DNA of 21,214 nucleotides from a virus. Position numbers and translations under genes: made by a program. This document shows, one piece after another, positions 111 through 21,134 of the stretch. Where the stretch lies: positions 1 to 21,214 of IMG/VR virus record IMGVR_UViG_3300023220_001073; one strand, 5' to 3'. Numbering within the stretch: the stretch's first letter is position 1; each line of letters opens with the position of its first letter. Under the pieces are notes generated by a model. The model was not told where the DNA came from and did no database searches. It saw nothing but the letters and a program-made list of their open reading frames with translations.

Positions 111-239
111 ATGGAAAAACCAAAACCTTTGAAAAACATCATCGAGATGGCGTCAATGTCTATAATTCTTTTGGGGTTTCGTTTTTATCTTGCTGGTGTG
201 GCATTATTTGCATTTCGTTTTTATCGTGTGGGGCAATGA
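111..239 (+). CDS. possible small membrane protein
   Basis: This is a 42-codon frame, or 46 codons from the ATG at 99. Its C-terminal half is a single hydrophobic helix (residues about 16-36, rich in Ile, Leu, Phe and Ala) flanked by Lys and Arg. The sequence GAGTGG, 5 bases before the ATG at 99, could be a weak ribosome site. It overlaps the end of the leftward repressor (160-420) by about 80 bases, so at least part of the frame may be a shadow of that gene. I do not recognise a family. It is listed because hydrophobic mini-proteins beside phage immunity genes are common. Confidence 0.25.
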   Translation: MEKPKPLKNIIEMASMSIILLGFRFYLAGVALFAFRFYRVGQ

Positions 240-420
240 ACCATGTGGTGTCTATGTCGCAATACTGTGCAATTTTTTCTAGTGTCTTAAAAGATGAAAC
301 CCCCTCCTTCTTCCATTTATACACCACTGCTTTAGATATTTCCATATCAGATGCCATTTTTGCAACATCCATATTGGCAAGCGCAATAGTTATATTTTTA
401 GAAATTATTTTATCAATCAT
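160..420 (-). CDS. CI-like helix-turn-helix repressor, short form
   Basis: This 86-residue protein is the only convincing leftward gene in the window. Residues about 18-52 form a helix-turn-helix of the XRE/Cro-C1 type: an ALANMDVAKMA helix, a turn at MEIS, then a recognition helix around KAVVYKWKKEG. The tail is polar and contains two DKNE segments encoded by a 13-base direct repeat. It would bind the operator at 439-457 and silence the rightward early promoter, keeping the lysogenic state. It has no S24-type self-cleavage domain, unlike lambda CI or P22 C2, so induction by RecA would need another route. Its own promoter lies at 450-478 and gives a leader of roughly 20 bases. Function is inferred from fold, size and divergent placement. 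Confidence 0.75.
   Translation of the reverse strand: MIDKIISKNITIALANMDVAKMASDMEISKAVVYKWKKEGVSSFKTLEKIAQYCDIDTTWFIAPHDKNEMQIMPHQQDKNETPKEL
177..225. repeat. 13-base direct repeat in the repressor tail
   Basis: TTTCGTTTTTATC occurs at 177-189 and again at 213-225, 36 bases apart and in the same frame. On the minus strand it encodes the repeated DKNE segment of the repressor C-terminus, so it may be a small in-gene duplication. Confidence 0.6.
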
Positions 421-431
421 TACACATTTTA

Positions 432-459
432 TTGACAGTTTATATTTTTTGTATAAAAT
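432..459 (+). promoter_or_regulatory. rightward early promoter (PR-like)
   Basis: A perfect -35 TTGACA (432-437) is followed after 16 bases by TAAAAT (454-459, 5 of 6 consensus). It lies just upstream of the Cro-like gene at 480 and would drive the rightward early operon. The -10 element overlaps that of the leftward repressor promoter. Confidence 0.7.
439..457. promoter_or_regulatory. candidate operator palindrome
   Basis: TTTATA (439-444) and TATAAA (452-457) form a perfect inverted repeat with a 7-base spacer. It covers the spacer and -10 of the rightward promoter and the -10 of the leftward one. That is the expected place for a repressor/Cro binding site. The region is very A/T rich, so a chance palindrome is possible. 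Confidence 0.42.
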
Positions 460-478
460 TAAACAAAAACGGTATCAA
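450..478 (-). promoter_or_regulatory. leftward repressor promoter (PRM/PL-like)
   Basis: On the minus strand, TTGATA (478-473) is separated by 17 bases from TATACA (455-450). Transcription would start near 443 and reach the repressor ATG at 420. The element overlaps the rightward promoter at 450-459, so the two polymerases cannot both occupy the region. Confidence 0.6.
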
Positions 479-479
479 A

Positions 480-764
480 ATGGAGAGTGTTAAAGAAATA
501 ATTGAATCCTTGGGTGGTCCTAAAACTTCCTCACACTTCTTTAATGTGACAATAGCTTATATATATCAATGGATTAATAGCAATAAAATCCCATCGAATA
601 TGTTATTAAAACTTTATTGCTATTGTCAGAAATCTCCCTTTATATCCCTAAAAATTAATGGCAAAACATATACTTATGAAGTTACCGACCTGTTAGATAA
701 CACTGTACCACAAAAAGAACCTGTATACAAAAAGTATACGGTCAAACATGAACAAGGAATGTGA
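480..764 (+). CDS. Cro/YdaS-like DNA-binding protein
   Basis: This 94-residue protein starts at the ATG at 480. The frame is open further upstream, but that extension would run through the promoter. Residues about 5-42 form a small helix-turn-helix: helix EIIESLGG, turn, then helices around TIAYIYQWINSNKIPSN. This is the arrangement of YdaS/Cro-like phage regulators that begin early operons. The C-terminal half is Lys/Tyr-rich and without a recognised domain. It lies opposite the repressor and first in the early transcript, so its likely job is to repress the repressor promoter and help commit to lytic growth. The family is inferred from helix pattern and context. It could instead be a YdaS-type toxin/antitoxin-like regulator. 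Confidence 0.6.
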   Translation: MESVKEIIESLGGPKTSSHFFNVTIAYIYQWINSNKIPSNMLLKLYCYCQKSPFISLKINGKTYTYEVTDLLDNTVPQKEPVYKKYTVKHEQGM

Positions 765-2223: not shown

Positions 2224-2939
2224 TGGATAAAGACCAAAATTACCTCCCCTTCACTACCCATAGTGGCGGCAAGTACTTTAAGGACGGTAGCTATTGTGTG
2301 CCCATTCTTTTTGAGCCGTCCGACGCAGTGTCAGCGGCCAAATGGTTGGGTGGTGTGCCCGGTAAATTTGGCGCTCTAACGATTATTGAGCGAGAAGCGG
2401 CCCAAACACACCAACGAAAAAAATTTATAGAAGACAATACCCCGCACTATGGCCACTTTGCTCAAATCATCGATGAATCCGGCTTCTGGTGTCAGCTCAA
2501 GGTGTTAAAGGCGGTAGCCTGTGAGAGAACTTATATTGAGTGGTGTCGCTTGCAGCCTTGCGCCATCAATAAAGACCATCAGGGCGGCTGGGATATGATC
2601 AAAGGCGAAATGCGCAGCGAATATGACCATGTCAATACCGCAAAAAACGCCGGCACCGCTTATAAAAATCAACAATATTTCGGTTGGCCGCTGTGCTATG
2701 ACTGCCATCATGTAACAAAAGTAGGCGTAACGATGGACATTGAATCCAAAACACGCCTTATTCAAAAGCATCAATTTCAATGGGCTAGAGGGGTGGTTAA
2801 AAAACAATTTGGCTTTGACTCGTGGCGGGATATCCATCCCTCTTCTTTTCTGTTGTGGGTTAAAGTACATCAATTGCAAGAGTTAATCCCTGAAGTCTAT
2901 TTTATCCAATCAGACAAGATGAACCAGGAAGTCGCGTGA
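2223..2939 (+). CDS. HNH/zinc-knuckle protein, possible DUF968-like nuclease
   Basis: This 238-residue protein starts at the ATG at 2223, overlapping the preceding stop by one base; a GTG at 2220 is the alternative. It carries a likely zinc site of two pairs, C108-x4-C113 and C158-x2-C161. Around them are a YDH motif (H136) and a PLCYDCHH motif (H162, H163). This is the order of a small HNH-type nuclease fold and resembles DUF968-type phage recombination or junction-processing proteins encoded beside replication genes. The N-terminal 90 residues match no domain I know. Placement directly after the initiator supports a role in DNA metabolism. The nuclease assignment rests on motif spacing only. 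Confidence 0.5.
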   Translation: MDKDQNYLPFTTHSGGKYFKDGSYCVPILFEPSDAVSAAKWLGGVPGKFGALTIIEREAAQTHQRKKFIEDNTPHYGHFAQIIDESGFWCQLKVLKAVACERTYIEWCRLQPCAINKDHQGGWDMIKGEMRSEYDHVNTAKNAGTAYKNQQYFGWPLCYDCHHVTKVGVTMDIESKTRLIQKHQFQWARGVVKKQFGFDSWRDIHPSSFLLWVKVHQLQELIPEVYFIQSDKMNQEVA

Positions 2940-3772
2940 TTTATACCGCTTACCGACAAAATTGGCTGCCCAGAACGGTACGTAAACTGCGTCAAAACCA
3001 TCATATCTGGGTGACGGCTATGATTGTCTCAGTGGCATTATTTGTGCTGATTTTGGCGTTTTGTGGCCTGTATGGCCAAGAGCCACAATGGCCGCAAGAC
3101 AGAGTAATTGGCGTGATAGGTGCCAGCTTTGAGTCCTGTGAAATACCGCTTGATACCCCCTTCAACGGCATGGGTTTAGCCGGCTGCAGCTATACCAGTT
3201 TGACGGATGCACTAAAGAATAATCACGACTTAACTAAAATGGGCTTTAAGATTCGTCATACTGCACAAGCGGGCGCTTATTCTTACGATGTGCCTAATAC
3301 GGGTTGGCTGGGAATGGACGCCCAATATCTCAAGCTTAAGAAAATGACCTATTGGGCCTGGGATAAAAGCTCTCGACTGGACTATCTAGTGATTGGGTTA
3401 ACCAATGATTGTTTGCATTCCACTCCTTGTGATAAATCAGGTATTCAGCGCTTAATAGACAATAAAAAACAGGTGGTACTACAGGCCCAGAAGGAAGGCA
3501 TCAAGGTTATTGTTTTAAACTACCCAGAGTGGCACACCCTTGATTTAGACATCAGTGCACGCATTTTTGGCTTTAAGTACATTATTGATGAAGCGGGTTA
3601 CCACTCATTGAGAAGTGCTTATGACGGCGCCTTTAACACCCTGCCAGGGATTGCTTATCTCACGGTGTGGAACAATAAAACAAAAATGATTATCGATGGC
3701 CTGCATCCTGATGAAAAGTCACAACACAGTGCATCAGACGATATTTCTGATGTTATTTTGAGGAGGGGTTGA
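2936..3772 (+). CDS. membrane-anchored SGNH/GDSL-like hydrolase
   Basis: This 278-residue protein starts at the GTG at 2936, which overlaps the previous stop (GTGA) behind an AGGAAG site. It has a basic N-terminus, one transmembrane helix (residues about 27-46), then a soluble domain with all four SGNH blocks: VIGVIGASFES (Ser64; GAS instead of the usual GDS), Gly113, VIGLTNDC (Asn157) and IDGLHPDE (Asp254, His257). SGNH enzymes remove acyl or acetyl groups from lipids, sugars or peptidoglycan. With Nin-Cout topology this one would act in the periplasm, which suggests envelope or surface-polysaccharide modification, perhaps lysogenic conversion or exclusion of other phages. It lies in the early operon between DNA-metabolism genes and the late regulator. 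The family is well supported. Substrate is unknown. Confidence 0.78.
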   Translation: MIYTAYRQNWLPRTVRKLRQNHHIWVTAMIVSVALFVLILAFCGLYGQEPQWPQDRVIGVIGASFESCEIPLDTPFNGMGLAGCSYTSLTDALKNNHDLTKMGFKIRHTAQAGAYSYDVPNTGWLGMDAQYLKLKKMTYWAWDKSSRLDYLVIGLTNDCLHSTPCDKSGIQRLIDNKKQVVLQAQKEGIKVIVLNYPEWHTLDLDISARIFGFKYIIDEAGYHSLRSAYDGAFNTLPGIAYLTVWNNKTKMIIDGLHPDEKSQHSASDDISDVILRRG

Positions 3773-8941: not shown

Positions 8942-9190
8942 ATGGAGCTAACCTCTGACCAACTAGACGGATGGAAACATCACCCCGTTACTCAGTATAT
9001 TTTAAACAGCATTGCCGAGTCAGTGGTGGAGATGCGTCGTGTCCCCCGGTGTCGTGATGGCCAAAGCATGGAGCAAATTGCACTCAAGTGTGCTCAAGCC
9101 GAAGGCTTGATAGAGGGCGCGCTGCAAATTCAATTATGGCTCGACAATCTCGAGTTTCAAAAAAAACAATCTGAGGAAGGCAATGGATAA
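8942..9190 (+). CDS. small conserved-looking head-region protein
   Basis: This 82-residue protein begins at the base after the portal stop, with AAGGAG (8931-8936) five bases before. It is helical and polar, with two cysteines, and ends in a charged tail (EFQKKQSEEGNG) that overlaps the co-chaperonin start. No family is recognised. Position between portal and co-chaperonin suggests a head-assembly accessory. Confidence 0.7.
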   Translation: MELTSDQLDGWKHHPVTQYILNSIAESVVEMRRVPRCRDGQSMEQIALKCAQAEGLIEGALQIQLWLDNLEFQKKQSEEGNG

Positions 9191-9512
9191 CAATCCGATA
9201 AAAAAAGTCTGTGGCCATTATGTGTTGGTCAAAAAGGAACACATTGAAGAAAAAACCGCTGGCGGCATTGTGCTGCCCTCTCAAACCATCAGCAATGAAC
9301 GCGCCAGACAATGCGTTGCAACGGTGGTTGAATTTGGTCCTAAAGCGTTTCATGGTTATGTCGAGGGCACCGAATGCCATGGCCCAGAAGATTGGGGGGT
9401 CCAGGTGGGCGATAAAATTGAATTCTGTCGCTCCTATGGCCAAACCCCCTTAAGCGATGAATCAGAAGAATTCCTTATTATTATTGACAAAGATATTATG
9501 GTGGTGGTATGA
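9183..9512 (+). CDS. phage GroES-like co-chaperonin
   Basis: This 109-residue protein starts at the ATG at 9183, inside the end of the previous gene. It is a clear Cpn10/GroES homologue: YVLVKKEHIEEKTAGGIVL (residues 13-31) matches the first strand and mobile loop, with the hydrophobic I29-V30-L31 tripeptide that docks on GroEL. VQVGDKIEF (73-81) matches the core strand, and the C-terminal strand is DKDIMVVV. A Gly/His/Cys-containing insert (about 52-72) replaces the usual roof loop, and cysteines occur at 10, 44, 65 and 82. It should cap host GroEL to fold the coat protein, like T4 gp31. It lies between portal and scaffold. Confidence 0.9.
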   Translation: MDNNPIKKVCGHYVLVKKEHIEEKTAGGIVLPSQTISNERARQCVATVVEFGPKAFHGYVEGTECHGPEDWGVQVGDKIEFCRSYGQTPLSDESEEFLIIIDKDIMVVV

Positions 9513-11657: not shown

Positions 11658-12590
11658 ATGGCTGCAGGAGGCGTAATTACCCGCGGTAATAATCCGCGAT
11701 TATTAAGAGAAGACGTTAATGCTATTTTCAGTGATGCATATAACGAACATCCACAACAATTTTCTAAAATCTATGGTGCGCCACACATGGCATCCCATTC
11801 ATTTGAAGTCGACGTGCAATGGGGCAGTTTTGGTCCCGCACCGATAAAAGATGAATCCGATGGCGTGGTTAACGATTCACAACAACAAGGCATTACCCCT
11901 AAATATCCGATTGATACTTTTGCGCTCGCCTATCAGGTCAGTGAAGAAAACATGGAAGATAATAAATGGGGTTTATTTTCAGATGGTGCGCGTAAATTGG
12001 CTTTTTCATTACGTCAATCGTCTGAAATTGAAGGCGCTAATGTATTAAATCGTGCCTTTAATTCTGCTTTTGTGATGCAAGATGGCGATGGTAAATCTTT
12101 ATTGGCCACCGACCACCGCAGAGGACCGGATGATAACACCTCGGTTTCTAATAAACTGGCGATTGCTGCCTCTTTATCAGAAGCCAGCCTGGAAAGACTA
12201 TTAATTCAAGTCCAAGAATTAAAAGATACCCGCGGCAACCCGGTTGCTGCGACGGCAACGCGCATGATTGCCCCCCCTGCTTTATCTTTTGAAGCGCAAC
12301 GTATTACCGCTTCGGTATTACAAAGTGGCACTGCTAATAATGACTTAAATGCCATTCGCAGTATGGGCATGTTGCCCGAAGGCTTTTTTGTCAACAACTA
12401 TCTGACATCTGACACCGCTTGGTTTTTGATGACCGATGTTGATGATGGTTTAAAGCATATGTTAAGACGCGGCGTTAAATTCCAAGAAGATAATGATTTT
12501 GGCACCTCTAATATGCGCTTCAAAGCATCACAGCGTGAAACCTTTGGTTGGTCTGATTTCCGCGGTGTATTCGGCACAGAAGGCGCATAA
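11658..12590 (+). CDS. major capsid protein
   Basis: This 310-residue protein starts at the ATG at 11658 behind an AGGAG. Its size and layout fit an HK97-fold coat of the Mu gpT-like group: an N-terminal ITRGNNPRLLREDVNAIF helix, a central LSEASLERLLIQVQELKDTRG spine-like helix, and a C-terminal DDGLKHMLRRGVKFQEDNDF with MRFKASQRETFGWSDFRGVF. The strong terminator directly after it and the structured leader before it mark it as the high-expression head gene. Confidence 0.85.
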   Translation: MAAGGVITRGNNPRLLREDVNAIFSDAYNEHPQQFSKIYGAPHMASHSFEVDVQWGSFGPAPIKDESDGVVNDSQQQGITPKYPIDTFALAYQVSEENMEDNKWGLFSDGARKLAFSLRQSSEIEGANVLNRAFNSAFVMQDGDGKSLLATDHRRGPDDNTSVSNKLAIAASLSEASLERLLIQVQELKDTRGNPVAATATRMIAPPALSFEAQRITASVLQSGTANNDLNAIRSMGMLPEGFFVNNYLTSDTAWFLMTDVDDGLKHMLRRGVKFQEDNDFGTSNMRFKASQRETFGWSDFRGVFGTEGA

Positions 12591-13719: not shown

Positions 13720-14544
13720 ATGGCGATTGCCTCTATTGGTAAACGGGTTTCATTTACCGATGCCGGAGATATTCCGCTTATCGTTAAAAATCCGTTTGCC
13801 ATTGTAACAACAAGAGTCGCCGGTGACTTTACCACCAATGGCACCACCTCGGCGTGGGCCATCACCGACACCTCTGCTCCCCGCACCGCTACCTTAGGCA
13901 GTGCCGATGAAGTGTTGGACAGAATTATTACTATTACCGATGAATCCATCGGTGCGTTTACCAGCAATATTACCATTACCACTCAAAGCGGTTCATTAAT
14001 TGATGGTGCCGCATCCACGGCTATTGTCACTAATGGTGGTGGCGTTTCTTTTAAATTCGATGGCACTGATTGGAAGATTCAACCATCGCCTGATACGACG
14101 ACCGCCTCTATATCCGCTGCCATTGCCAATTACACCTTAATTGATAATGAAAGTAAGTTACCTGCACTGGTGGGGGGAGAGCATCTATTAACCACGGGCA
14201 CGTATGAGTTTGTTGATGATCCCATTACCGGTGGTGTTTTAATTATAGTATTTCCTGTCAAATTAGGGCCCGGCGTAGGCGCACTTATTCGAGGTGACAA
14301 ATTAGCTAATCCAGTGGTATATGTAGGGGGGGGTGGTTTTGTTAGGGCTAGTATAACCACACCACCATTGGGTTACATACAATTAAACTTCTTGCTCGTC
14401 AGTCTAGGGGGAACCGCCTTTGATTATGCGGGGGGCTTTTCTTTTTTTGCCGATAACTTTTCTTTCTTGGGGGGGGGCTGGCTATGGCTCCATTTCCAAT
14501 CAGTTTGCTTTTATAGCACTTGCTGGGGCGTCCCTCGGATTTGA
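13720..14544 (+). CDS. N-terminal part of a frameshifted fibre-like protein
   Basis: From the ATG at 13720 this frame encodes a beta-rich virion protein up to a run of nine Gs (14469-14477). The remaining 22 or so codons (WLWLHFQ to the stop at 14544) are unlike the rest and Trp/Cys-rich, as expected after a frameshift. Skipping one G joins the frame to the one ending at 15751 and gives a single 676-residue protein; the joined text reads smoothly (FFADNFSFLGGG, then AGYGSISNQFAF). Part of residues about 140-250 looks like a parallel beta-helix built of short hydrophobic and Gly turns. Either expression is switched by tract length, or the G count is a sequencing error. The truncated product may still be made. 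Confidence 0.7.
   Translation: MAIASIGKRVSFTDAGDIPLIVKNPFAIVTTRVAGDFTTNGTTSAWAITDTSAPRTATLGSADEVLDRIITITDESIGAFTSNITITTQSGSLIDGAASTAIVTNGGGVSFKFDGTDWKIQPSPDTTTASISAAIANYTLIDNESKLPALVGGEHLLTTGTYEFVDDPITGGVLIIVFPVKLGPGVGALIRGDKLANPVVYVGGGGFVRASITTPPLGYIQLNFLLVSLGGTAFDYAGGFSFFADNFSFLGGGWLWLHFQSVCFYSTCWGVPRI
14326..14333 (+). repeat. eight-G homopolymer in the fibre gene
   Basis: Eight Gs encode Gly codons in the segment VYVGGGGFVRA, in frame with the start at 13720. It is a second long G run 140 bases upstream of the nine-G tract; shorter runs lie at 14172-14177 (6), 14407-14411 (5) and 14430-14435 (6). Confidence 0.8.
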
Positions 14545-15751
14545 AACAGCCTATACGGTCCCTTTATCAGTTTCTGAAACGCCCTCATTTTCTTACGTAG
14601 GAGGTTCTTATGGGCCAAGCACTGCTTTGACAGGGCCCATTATATCGGTTGGTAAAAACATTGCTCGCTCGGTAATAAAAGAAATAAATAGTACCCCTTT
14701 GTCTGGCAGTTCTTTTCTCTCTGTTAGCCCAGAAGTGGGTGACACTTCATCCGTTATTATTACAGATAATATTTTTGATAATGCTAATGGTGGTGACTTC
14801 TTTGACCCGGGCCTGCAAGGCGATATCAGCTCGGTTGCCGATAACAGTTCAACGGGCAGTATTACGGCGTTTGCCGATAATGGCTCAGGCGGCACAACGG
14901 TCACCAGCTCATCTGCTCATGGTTTATCCGATGGTAGAACAGTCACCCTCAGTGGCACGACTAATTATAATGGTACCTTTGTGATTTCTGCTGCCTCCGG
15001 CTCGGTCTATGATATTGCAACGGCTTTTGTTGCGGATGATGCGACCGGTACCTGGAATTTTAATAGCATCACGGTGACAACGTCTGCACCCCACACCCTA
15101 TCCGATGGGAGTGCCGTTCAAATCGCCAAGAGCTACGAAGAATACAATAAAGGCCGCGCTATTTTTAATGCCTCAGGCTCGGTATTCGATGTCGATAATG
15201 TGGTGTTTGTTGCGACTGGTACCGGTAAATATGATAGTGGCAGCCTCAAAGAAAATGAACCGCGGATGATTGTGCGCAGTAACACCAATCAATCCGATAC
15301 CGCACAGATTTTGGTGTGTGAAATTACGGTCACTGAACCCATTGTTTTAACCCTTAACACCCCAACACCGGTTACCAGTTGGGTGACGACCAGTGATGAT
15401 CAATTTACCTTCGACCCACCCGGCCAGCCCGCAGGCACTTTTAGATATGATGGTCTTGATGTGCGTGCCAATATTGATTCTAATTTTGTATTTGTCGCCA
15501 CTAGTGGTAATCCGGGGGATGATATTGAATTTACCGTTTATAAATCAACCCCACCCGCTGCCTTTTCCCAAATTGGCGTCGCAGCACTTTCAACATTAAC
15601 CAATAAACAAAACTCTGCCATTGTCAGTATCGTTGACTCTATTACAAAAGGTGATTTATTGCAGATTCGAGTAGAAAATTTGTCGGGCAGCGCTTCAATC
15701 GACATTGATAACGCTTCTTTAACCGTTTTTACTGTGGCCCAAGGGGCTTAA
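14426..15751 (+). CDS. C-terminal part of the frameshifted fibre-like protein
   Basis: This frame is open from about 14420 to 15751. The ATG at 14426 is the nearest start but has no clear ribosome site, and its first 17 residues overlap the upstream frame. It is best read as the C-terminal 425 residues of the 13720 gene, entered after one G of the nine is skipped (from about 14477). It contains beta-helix segments, two similar Ser/Thr-rich repeats (TVTSSSAHGLSDGRTVTLSG and TVTTSAPHTLSDGSAVQIAK), and a C-terminal sandwich domain (FTFDPPGQPAGTFRYDGLDV, then DLLQIRVENLSGSASIDIDN). Likely a head or tail fibre binding partner. Confidence 0.68.
   Translation: MRGAFLFLPITFLSWGGAGYGSISNQFAFIALAGASLGFETAYTVPLSVSETPSFSYVGGSYGPSTALTGPIISVGKNIARSVIKEINSTPLSGSSFLSVSPEVGDTSSVIITDNIFDNANGGDFFDPGLQGDISSVADNSSTGSITAFADNGSGGTTVTSSSAHGLSDGRTVTLSGTTNYNGTFVISAASGSVYDIATAFVADDATGTWNFNSITVTTSAPHTLSDGSAVQIAKSYEEYNKGRAIFNASGSVFDVDNVVFVATGTGKYDSGSLKENEPRMIVRSNTNQSDTAQILVCEITVTEPIVLTLNTPTPVTSWVTTSDDQFTFDPPGQPAGTFRYDGLDVRANIDSNFVFVATSGNPGDDIEFTVYKSTPPAAFSQIGVAALSTLTNKQNSAIVSIVDSITKGDLLQIRVENLSGSASIDIDNASLTVFTVAQGA
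14469..14477 (+). repeat. nine-G homopolymer at the frameshift point
   Basis: A run of nine Gs lies exactly where the two halves of the fibre frame meet. Eight Gs restore one frame from 13720 to 15751; nine give a stop at 14542-14544. Runs of this length slip in replication, as in phase-variable genes. Confidence 0.85.
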
Positions 15752-16793: not shown

Positions 16794-19508
16794 ATGGCTG
16801 AACAAGAAAAACTAACCGACAAGACCGAATTATTGGTGGTTGACCCCAATGATTTCGCGCATGTGGTCGATGTTGATGACTTTACAGCCGATCCGTCTGG
16901 CACCAGTAAAAAAGCTAAATTAAGTACTATTTTTGCCTCGATTACCCCAGGCGAAGTGAATACCGCAACCAATGTCGGTGCTGCCGGTGTTGGGGTATTT
17001 AAGCAAAAAGTCGGTGCCGCATTACAATTTAAAAACGTCAATGCCGGCTCTTCTAAAGTCAGCGTCACAGACGATGCTGGCAATAGCGAGATTGATATTG
17101 ATGTGGTAGAGGCTAATCTTTCTCTGCCCAATCTAGGGGGGCAAGTCGGCACGCCGCAAATCGGTGATACCACCGTCAGCAATGTCAAGCTCGCTACCAT
17201 GAATGCCAATACCTTAAAAGGCAATAACACTGGCGGCAGTATTTCTCCGCTCGATTTAACCACTACACAAACCAGAACCCTACTCAATGTAGCAGACGGT
17301 GCCACCCAAAACAGCAGCGACAGTTTTCTGTTAAACCGCGCCAATCATACCGGCACCCAAACCATCAGCACTCTATCTGATGCCGGTACGCTCGCTGGGC
17401 TTAATAGTGTTAATACGGCACAAATAGACGCCGATGCCGTGACGAATGTTGAAGCCAACGATATGTCTGCCAATACTATAAAAGGGAATGACACCGGCGT
17501 CACCGCTGACCCCAAGGATTTGACGGGTCCCCAAGCCAGAGTGGTTTTAGCGCTCGATAATCTCACCAATGATGCGCAACTGAAAAGAAGCGCCGCTGAC
17601 TTTACCACCTTTAGCCAAAAGCTTTTGCCGGCCAGCGCCGATGTGGTACTCATTGAAGACAGTGCCGATGTTTTTAATAAAAAATATGCCACGCTGCAAG
17701 ATATTATGGGGGCCCCTCTAGACCAACTCATCGGCGGCGATGGCATTGATTATGATATTCCAACTGAAACCATCAGTGCGGATATCAATACCACCAATCT
17801 ACAGTTTAGCACCGGTCAAATTAACACCATTCAAGATATAGGCTCTAGTGCCAGCCCCACCTATGCTGGTGCCACGTTAACTGGGTTTTCGGGTGTTTTA
17901 AAAGCCACGGCGGGTGTGTTATCCGATAATGCCGCCAGTACCGATCTATCAGACACTGCAAACATTATTTATGATGGGGATTTTTCTACCGCGGGGATTA
18001 TGACCCGTACTGCGGCCAATACTTATAGTGGTCGCACCATAACCGGCACCAGCAGCCGAATAGATATCTCGAATGGCGATGGGGTTGCAGGCAACCCAAC
18101 CATTAATATTGATACAAGCTATGTCGGTCAATCAAGTATTACCACGCTCGGCACCATTAGTAGCGGCACCTGGCAAGGTGACGCCATCGCCGTTAATCAA
18201 GGTGGGTCGGGACAAACCAGCTATACCGATGGTCAATTGTTAATTGGCAACTCGACCGGTAATACATTAGCCAAAGCAACTTTGTCCGGCACGACCAATC
18301 AAGTCAATGTGGCCAATGGCTCCGGTACGATTACCTTATCTCTGCCGCAAGATATAGCCACCACGTCGAGCCCACAATTTGACGATCCCCTCGTTACCTC
18401 TTTAAGACTTGAAGACTCGGTACAAAATAATTCCTTAAGAATAACGTATGACACCAATTTGACGAGTGATGAATTCTTAATTTTAAGAACGGCCGACGCC
18501 ACCGTTAGTTTAGATATACAAGGTAATACCGTGGTTGATGATTGGTTTGACCAAAGTGTTAAAACCACGGCCAGCCCCACATTTGCTGGATTAGATGTCA
18601 ATACATCTGGAATCGCTAGAATAGAAGTAGAGTCTAGTGACGACCAAGCAGGTATAGGTTTTACATCCGATGGTACTGCAACAGTCGTTATATATTCACC
18701 AGATAGCACGGATGATTTAAGATTTTTTCTTAATGGAGCTGATCGTGTATCTATAAACCCTACTGGCAATGTTGGTATTGGTATACCTACTGCAAATAAC
18801 ACACTAGATATACAAGGCGTTACTAGAACAGGAACACATGCAAGCGGAAGACCCCTCTATGTAACGGGTAATATCAGTGAGGCATCTAATGGCATAGAGT
18901 TTCGCCATACAAATGGCTCTCAGGGGATAGGTTTTGGGTTCAATACTATCTATGCCACGGGCTCTGTTGCAAATGCAAATCAAAATTTAAGTCTACTAGC
19001 GAAAGGGACGGGTGGTGTTGGTATTGGTACATCAAATCCTGCTTGGGACTTGCATGTTAGAAAAACAACGCCGGATGTTATAAGCGCTATAGAATGCGTA
19101 TCTAACGACGCTATTTTTAGAATATGGGGTGGGTCTAATGATGCAGGGACGCAAAATTCAGTTATACAATTTGGCACTAAACAGTTAAGCGGCTTCCCTA
19201 CCGATCCTGATAGAAGTTTCTACGCCGGATTAAAACCGAATGCGTTTAATCCCACGTTTGTTATCGGCGGGGACACTACCGCTGCATGGAACCTGCCGGG
19301 TTCAGCAGACAGATTTACGCTCGATCTTAGCGGCAACATAGGATTCAACGGCGTTAGTTTTGGCGGAGGAACCAAAGTTTTTTTTATAGCAAATGCAACC
19401 GCTGTTCCTACGAGTAACCCAACGGGAGGCGGTATTGTTTATGTAGAATCAGGTGCCCTTAAATACCGTGGCTCTTCTGGAACCATCACCACCATCGCAA
19501 ACGCATAA
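16794..19508 (+). CDS. long tail fibre / receptor-binding protein
   Basis: This 904-residue protein starts at the ATG at 16794; no Shine-Dalgarno is visible in the A/T-rich bases before it. A head-binding-like N-terminus leads into long repetitive beta stretches. Examples are two ANTLKGNNTG/ANTIKGNDTG-type repeats, the phage-fibre phrase SSITTLGTISSGTWQGDAIA, and SSPQF/ASPTF/ASPTY segments. The C-terminus has NPTGNVGIG and KGTGGVGIGTSNPAWDLHV blade-like motifs typical of tail fibres. From about 18600 codon choice changes (more ATA and AGA), suggesting an exchanged C-terminal domain. It should bind the host surface. Confidence 0.8.
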   Translation: MAEQEKLTDKTELLVVDPNDFAHVVDVDDFTADPSGTSKKAKLSTIFASITPGEVNTATNVGAAGVGVFKQKVGAALQFKNVNAGSSKVSVTDDAGNSEIDIDVVEANLSLPNLGGQVGTPQIGDTTVSNVKLATMNANTLKGNNTGGSISPLDLTTTQTRTLLNVADGATQNSSDSFLLNRANHTGTQTISTLSDAGTLAGLNSVNTAQIDADAVTNVEANDMSANTIKGNDTGVTADPKDLTGPQARVVLALDNLTNDAQLKRSAADFTTFSQKLLPASADVVLIEDSADVFNKKYATLQDIMGAPLDQLIGGDGIDYDIPTETISADINTTNLQFSTGQINTIQDIGSSASPTYAGATLTGFSGVLKATAGVLSDNAASTDLSDTANIIYDGDFSTAGIMTRTAANTYSGRTITGTSSRIDISNGDGVAGNPTINIDTSYVGQSSITTLGTISSGTWQGDAIAVNQGGSGQTSYTDGQLLIGNSTGNTLAKATLSGTTNQVNVANGSGTITLSLPQDIATTSSPQFDDPLVTSLRLEDSVQNNSLRITYDTNLTSDEFLILRTADATVSLDIQGNTVVDDWFDQSVKTTASPTFAGLDVNTSGIARIEVESSDDQAGIGFTSDGTATVVIYSPDSTDDLRFFLNGADRVSINPTGNVGIGIPTANNTLDIQGVTRTGTHASGRPLYVTGNISEASNGIEFRHTNGSQGIGFGFNTIYATGSVANANQNLSLLAKGTGGVGIGTSNPAWDLHVRKTTPDVISAIECVSNDAIFRIWGGSNDAGTQNSVIQFGTKQLSGFPTDPDRSFYAGLKPNAFNPTFVIGGDTTAAWNLPGSADRFTLDLSGNIGFNGVSFGGGTKVFFIANATAVPTSNPTGGGIVYVESGALKYRGSSGTITTIANA
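17850..17870 (+). repeat. fibre DNA repeat, copy 1
   Basis: Copy 1 matches 18570-18590 at 18 of 21 bases, encoding ASPTYAG here. The other copy encodes ASPTFAG. Confidence 0.7.
18570..18590 (+). repeat. fibre DNA repeat, copy 2
   Basis: Copy 2 lies 720 bases after copy 1, at the point where codon choice in the fibre gene changes. It could serve as a recombination site for domain exchange. Confidence 0.7.
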
Positions 19509-20183: not shown

Positions 20184-21134
20184 ATGGCAACCAGTGGCTC
20201 TACCGATTTTAATTTATCCGCTGCCGAGTGTATTACAGAAGCGTTTAAAATTATTGGGGTAAAAGCTCAAGGGCAATCGCTGCAAGCTGAAGAACTGCAA
20301 GATGGCTTTAGTGCCATTAACTTAATGATGAAAAATTGGCAGTCTCAAGGCTTGCATTTGTGGACCAAAACCGAAGGTATTTTGTTTTTAATCCCCGCTA
20401 AAACCGATTATTTCTTAGGCTTAAGCGGTGACAATGCCACCAATTTAGATAATCTGGTGAATGATGCCTTAACCACCGCTGCGGTATCTACGGCAACCAC
20501 ACTGGAAGTCGCTGATACCAGCCAAATGACCGCGCTGGATTTTATTGGTATTGAGCTCGACGATGGCACGCGTCAATGGACCACCATTGTGTCGGTTGAT
20601 AATGCCACCGACTTGACCATTACGGATCCCCTGACAGACGCTGCAGCCATTGGTAACACGGTGTATGTCTATACTACCCAAATAGAGCGGCCCTTAAGAA
20701 TTCTCGGCGCACGACGTAATACCACCGGCCAAGACACCGATATAGAAGTGCTGCCCTTTGACAGTCGCAGCGAATACTTTAATCAACCCAATAAATCGTC
20801 ACAAGGCACGGTGGTTAATTATTATTACACCCCAGAGCTCGGCAATGGCCGGGTGTATCTGTGGCAAACCGCCAGTGATATTAATGACATTTTTAAATTC
20901 ACTTTTGAGGCACCGATTCAAGATGTCGATGTCAATAATGATGACTTGGATTTCCCCATCGAAATGCAGCAAGTGGTGATTTATAACTTGGCGGTCTTTT
21001 TAGGCATTCAATATCCGTCGTTAGGCCAACAGCGCTTAACCAACATTAAAAGTATTGCTGATGACTTACTACAAAAAGCCTTGGCCTTTGATACCGACTC
21101 GCTGTTTTTAAGCATTCAACCGGATTTTAGCTAA
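20184..21134 (+). CDS. P22 gp4-like adaptor / packaged-DNA stabilisation protein
   Basis: This 316-residue protein begins at the ATG at 20184. The N-terminus shows the pattern of podovirus head-completion proteins: ECITEAFKIIGVKAQGQSL, then ELQDGFSAINLMMKNWQSQGLHLW. A beta-rich middle is followed by a helical end (QQVVIYNLAVFLGIQYPSLGQ, DDLLQKALAF). P22 gp4 is 166 residues; this longer form is typical of other podovirus adaptors. It should bind the portal ring after packaging, seal the DNA and receive the tail. Confidence 0.75.
   Translation: MATSGSTDFNLSAAECITEAFKIIGVKAQGQSLQAEELQDGFSAINLMMKNWQSQGLHLWTKTEGILFLIPAKTDYFLGLSGDNATNLDNLVNDALTTAAVSTATTLEVADTSQMTALDFIGIELDDGTRQWTTIVSVDNATDLTITDPLTDAAAIGNTVYVYTTQIERPLRILGARRNTTGQDTDIEVLPFDSRSEYFNQPNKSSQGTVVNYYYTPELGNGRVYLWQTASDINDIFKFTFEAPIQDVDVNNDDLDFPIEMQQVVIYNLAVFLGIQYPSLGQQRLTNIKSIADDLLQKALAFDTDSLFLSIQPDFS

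Follow-up and report, generated by a model that had tools for sequence, protein, structure and literature searches.

The two long open reading frames that overlap at a G run of an IMG/VR virus contig are halves of one coding sequence, divided at a run of nine Gs. The whole contig of 21,214 bases was analysed and is called the window below. In the best reading, to which we give a probability of about 0.5, the run is a poly-G contingency tract of a fibre-like gene and the contig was assembled in the truncated (OFF) state. The features at the break are:

13720-14544, plus strand: ORF1, upstream half of the fibre-like gene, 274 aa, which stops 22 codons beyond the G run in a frame that is non-coding-like there
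14420-15751, plus strand: ORF2, downstream half, 443 aa, coding-like from the G run onward only
14469-14477, plus strand: nine-G run at the frame break, the longest G/C homopolymer of the window

The initial annotation had placed both frames and the run correctly, as a recheck of the coordinates confirmed, and its 676-residue product after removal of one G was reproduced by computed translation. Its statement that the frames overlap exactly at the nine Gs has to be amended, since they share an open stretch of 134 bp, at about 14408-14541, that contains the run; the chance that the longest G/C run of the window would land there is 134/21214, about 0.6%. With codon scores trained on the window's other genes, positions 14420-14468 scored +0.69 in the ORF1 frame versus -0.13 in the ORF2 frame, and positions 14478-14544 scored +0.16 in the ORF2 frame versus -0.62 in the ORF1 frame. 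The codon signal switches frame at the run, which upholds the earlier proposal of a single fibre-like gene split there by one base. A profile scan over 14000-15000 put the best switch point at 14476 (95% interval 14448-14488); it used codon frequencies only and was not supplied with the position of the run, the true frame being stop-poor by construction. The tail of ORF1 beyond the run, GWLWLHFQSVCFYSTCWGVPRI, had been described as implausibly Trp/Cys-rich, and indeed it is codon-poor, and its 22 residues include 3 Trp and 2 Cys, whereas all 676 residues of the joined reading include 4 Trp and 1 Cys. Downstream, the codon signal is intact over 1.27 kb without further stops. The computed products for runs of 7, 8, 9, 10 and 11 Gs are 264, 676, 274, 265 and 677 aa, respectively.

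Five G runs (6, 8, 5, 6 and 9) were found within 306 bp of this gene, hereafter the poly-G gene, at 14172-14477, a cluster absent from the initial annotation. The four runs besides the nine-G run, and the region that holds them, are:

14172-14177, plus strand: G6 run, member of the cluster
14326-14333, plus strand: G8 run, the second long run, currently in frame; seven Gs would give 211 aa and nine Gs 208 aa
14407-14411, plus strand: G5 run, within AGGGGG, a possible weak Shine-Dalgarno sequence 8 nt before the TTG at 14420
14430-14435, plus strand: G6 run, member of the cluster
14155-14740, plus strand: middle region of the gene, codons about 146-340, with atypical synonymous codons and all of the G runs

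Either long run by itself decides whether the full protein is read, and the G8 run at 14326 is a possible second switch. When the same protein was simulated with the codon usage of the other genes, 0.7-0.8 G runs of at least 5 were expected against the five observed, about a 6-fold excess (P about 3-5e-4, for a region picked after being seen). When the region's own codons were permuted among their own positions, the number of G runs was ordinary (P 0.11), so the excess resides in the use of GGG codons itself and may reflect an oddity of mutation or composition. G/C runs of at least 8 are rare: the 1.32 Mb of 137 phage sequences contained three, two in the poly-G gene and one in the phage sequence L097. 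A G-run cluster of this kind is typical of slippage-prone contingency genes. Our script flagged the G8 of L097 as a broken frame, and inspection by eye showed an intact Gly-rich fibre gene with a normal next gene after it. This gene (14822-16684 of L097) encodes a fibre of a related phage, in which a Gly-rich domain with numerous G runs of up to 8 comes after repeats that are nearly identical (AVNSAGKFVAVGY...AAYSTDGTTWTTP).

The synonymous codon score of the middle region was -0.025 versus 0.219 in the rest, and only 4% of equal-length windows of other genes scored as low, with the minimum in the other fibre gene of the contig. Atypical codons are expected for exchanged receptor-binding parts, and the middle region may be such an exchanged, putatively variable and receptor-facing part of the protein. 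An equally low score was found at 18564-19360 (plus strand) in the second fibre gene, as if the receptor-binding parts of both fibres had recently been exchanged.

The poly-G gene belongs to a cluster of fibre-type genes that separates the capsid genes from the adaptor. The landmarks of this region are:

11658-12590, plus strand: major capsid protein, 38-45% identity to Pam1/HTVC023P-like phages
16794-19508, plus strand: second fibre gene, intact, 904 aa, phrog_31660 tail fiber
20184-21134, plus strand: tail/head-tail adaptor, on the far side of the fibre cluster from the capsid genes

The similarity of the major capsid protein fixes the phage group, and judged by its genes the contig is an uncultured tailed phage of the Pam1/HTVC023P-like kind. 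The portal, major capsid protein and tail adaptor are homologous to those of Pelagibacter phages HTVC023P and HTVC027P, Roseobacter phages CRP-901/902, Alcaligenes phage QDWS535, the two Manatee Spring phages (MW202785 and MW202796) and DSL-LC04, with which they group and whose head-module gene order is similar; one adaptor among these relatives carries the annotation Pam1-like. The large terminase was nearest to those of Pseudomonas and Vibrio phages (41-51%). The relatives share the order of the head module, but each has a fibre cluster of its own between capsid and adaptor, the fibre gene described here is absent from all of them, and the gene sets of this interval vary, with tail-fibre genes in MW202796. 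A divergent pair at 160-420 (minus strand) and 432-764 (plus strand), a repressor-like gene (phrog_8, transcriptional regulator, 5e-6) and a possible cro-like gene, suggests a temperate phage within the Pam1/HTVC023P-like group. A GroES co-chaperonin gene (9183-9512, plus strand; phrog_3188, 2e-13) is located between the portal and scaffold-like genes, and DSL-LC04 has a gene annotated as co-chaperonin GroES at a similar position. The gene at 2936-3772 (plus strand) encodes a membrane-anchored protein with GASFES and DGLHP motifs, SGNH hydrolase-like by impression only, for which no family match was obtained in Pfam or PHROGs.

Two domains were recognised in the product of the poly-G gene, one on each side of the join:

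13738-14097, plus strand: N-terminal domain, residues 7-126, matching phrog_20556 'baseplate protein' (E 1e-6)
14855-15058, plus strand: second domain, residues 379-446, shared with further structural proteins of phages (in L002, 62% over 68 aa)

The N-terminal domain recurs in many phage and some prophage-like loci, usually as the C-terminal end of structural proteins, whereas it opens the product of the poly-G gene. In relatives it closes the protein near residue 120-126, not at a point corresponding to 14544. The domain, seen here and in L126 and L128-L136, ends in DGT/SNWxxI; a Fangia genome and tailed viruses of haloarchaea carry it as well. Matches in the homologue searches were confined to these two flanking domains; no homologue crossing the join was found in phage records, viral contigs, bacterial genome contigs or about 1,070 genomes, nor was a second contig of the same phage found among the viral contigs searched. 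Several candidate matches were discarded. Weak matches in the approximately 1,070 genomes had E-values at chance level over hundreds of genomes, a match to HTVC027P was gone after composition correction, and a match to SCTP-2 beyond residue 120 ran through a stop codon and is not homology. An AlphaFold model of the joined protein, made without an alignment, had a pLDDT of 32 and no usable fold. One joined translation, obtained by recoding at TGGC, has G in place of A beside the join. The product may be a fibre-like protein of the virion that binds a receptor; the observations on this point are the fibre-cluster position and the phrog_20556 match.

According to the contingency reading, one fibre-like virion gene at 13720-15751 would carry a slippage-prone poly-G tract, and the run at 14469-14477 would gain or lose Gs during genome replication. 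With 8 or 11 Gs the full protein of 676 or 677 residues would be made, with nine the truncated product of 274 residues and with ten one of 265, and the second tract, the G8 at 14326, might switch in the same way. In the phage population, phages carrying the distal and probably receptor-facing part of the fibre would then be mixed with others lacking it, and the assembled contig would show the OFF length. We infer tract-length variation, virion location, receptor binding and selective upkeep of the tracts. The reading is supported by the mapping of the frame switch to the run, by the location of the longest G/C run of the window in the overlap, and by the G-run cluster, the rarity of G/C runs of at least 8, the position in the fibre cluster and the atypical synonymous codons of the middle region. 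The main rival, which we consider unlikely yet serious, holds that the phage has eight Gs, that the ninth arose in library preparation, base calling or assembly, and that the gene is ordinary and intact. The break does coincide with the longest G run, the kind of place in which such errors accumulate, and in assembled phage sequences frame breaks at homopolymers have been shown to stem from 454 reads, with Sanger data used to mend them (PMC3670811). However, the other long homopolymers in genes of the window are all in frame (A8 at 2187 and 9159, T8 at 19378, C7 at 12271, G8 at 14326), so the contig is not generally error-ridden. In the 137 phage sequences, A/T runs of 8 in coding sequence were intact in 29 cases and broken in 0, and an error would leave the clustering of G runs in the gene unexplained.

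The overlap could also be read as two genes, the 274-residue protein being natural and ORF2 starting internally at the TTG at 14420 after AGGGGG, a proposal that we find hardly credible. Phage fibres are often built of several short proteins, and the AGGGGG 8 nt before the TTG leaves a small possibility of internal initiation. But over the 49 bases upstream of the run (14420-14468) it is the ORF1 frame that looks coding, unlike the ORF2 frame, and ORF2 is therefore no independent gene whose start evolved ahead of the run; the Trp/Cys-rich, codon-poor tail and the closing of the protein by the first domain in relatives, near residue 120-126, likewise speak against it. It is improbable, though less strikingly so, that the break exists in the phage with no adaptive switching behind it, having arisen in a G-rich stretch through a single indel or because the fibre gene is decaying. 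Any long G run mutates, the observation amounts to a single contig with a single length that breaks the frame, and the intact fibre gene at 16794-19508 may make the poly-G gene dispensable. Against this, the stop-free coding signal downstream implies that the gene has not decayed, and several G runs are present rather than one. Programmed recoding, in which the ribosome (+1 or -2) or the RNA polymerase slips on the G run and both long and short proteins are made from one genome, is disfavoured here, and we regard it as very improbable; frameshifting of this programmed kind was the other option of the initial annotation. A G run permits re-pairing, phage Mu employs -2 frameshifting, and shifts of -1, -2 or +1 occur in tail assembly genes (PMC5009743). 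Yet the poly-G gene is not a tail-assembly chaperone, and the pairing of a slippery site with a stimulator that marks a programmed ribosomal frameshift was not found at the break: the downstream sequence has no unusual structure (fold z about 0), the site lacks both a stop codon and a Shine-Dalgarno element of the prfB type, and GGC, the codon in the A site, is used more often than any other Gly codon of the window (201/391). Programmed transcriptional slippage is associated with A or T runs of about 9 or more and the run here is of G; a report that transcription in E. coli and Buchnera shows no slippage on G/C runs (PMC5574713) likewise counts against it.

Beyond the single gene, we tentatively suggest, with rather less than even confidence, that poly-G hypermutation of a fibre gene, by way of two tracts acting independently in the same receptor-facing region, operates in Pam1/HTVC023P-like aquatic phages, and that it is a wider host-range strategy, not a peculiarity of Campylobacter, hidden in metagenomes as apparent frameshifts. 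If this is real, phase variation of fibre proteins by poly-G tracts would reach beyond the Campylobacter phages into an unrelated group. Single-base breaks of fibre genes in metagenomes, which are usually discarded as errors, may then be heritable host-range switches, and such switches would be directly measurable in reads.

As compared with the known systems, the -2 frameshifting of Mu tail-assembly genes resembles the present case in having two overlapping frames at a slippery sequence, but the poly-G gene is of another type and no stimulatory element was found. Poly-G contingency loci of Campylobacter surface genes have tracts of 7-11 G (PMC9311878); the tracts described here are of 8-9 G, likewise inside an open reading frame and in a putative surface-type protein, but in a phage gene with another genome context and in a single contig. 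The closest parallel is found in the phase-variable receptor-binding proteins of Campylobacter Fletchervirus phages (Sorensen et al. 2021, Cell Rep 35:109214), in so far as they are described in passages of PMC10579305 and PMC10877375. By sequence the protein of the poly-G gene shows no similarity to this family: when its N-terminal, middle and C-terminal parts were compared by tblastn with 50,697 phage records, allowing E-values of up to 10, none matched a receptor-binding protein of a Campylobacter phage. The phage group is unrelated as well, and the contig is known from one tract length. On the other hand both systems, the Fletchervirus one according to the same passages, have several fibre genes per phage and a poly-G run within a fibre-type gene, putatively of the virion in the present case, where a change of one G turns the full-length protein on or off. 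The tracts of the poly-G gene, G9 and G8, surpass the length of about 7 Gs that marks such proteins and lie within the coding sequence, and lengths one G apart give the full-length or a truncated protein. By tract lengths, fibre-gene position and the effect of each length, the gene matches the Campylobacter phage precedent as reported there.
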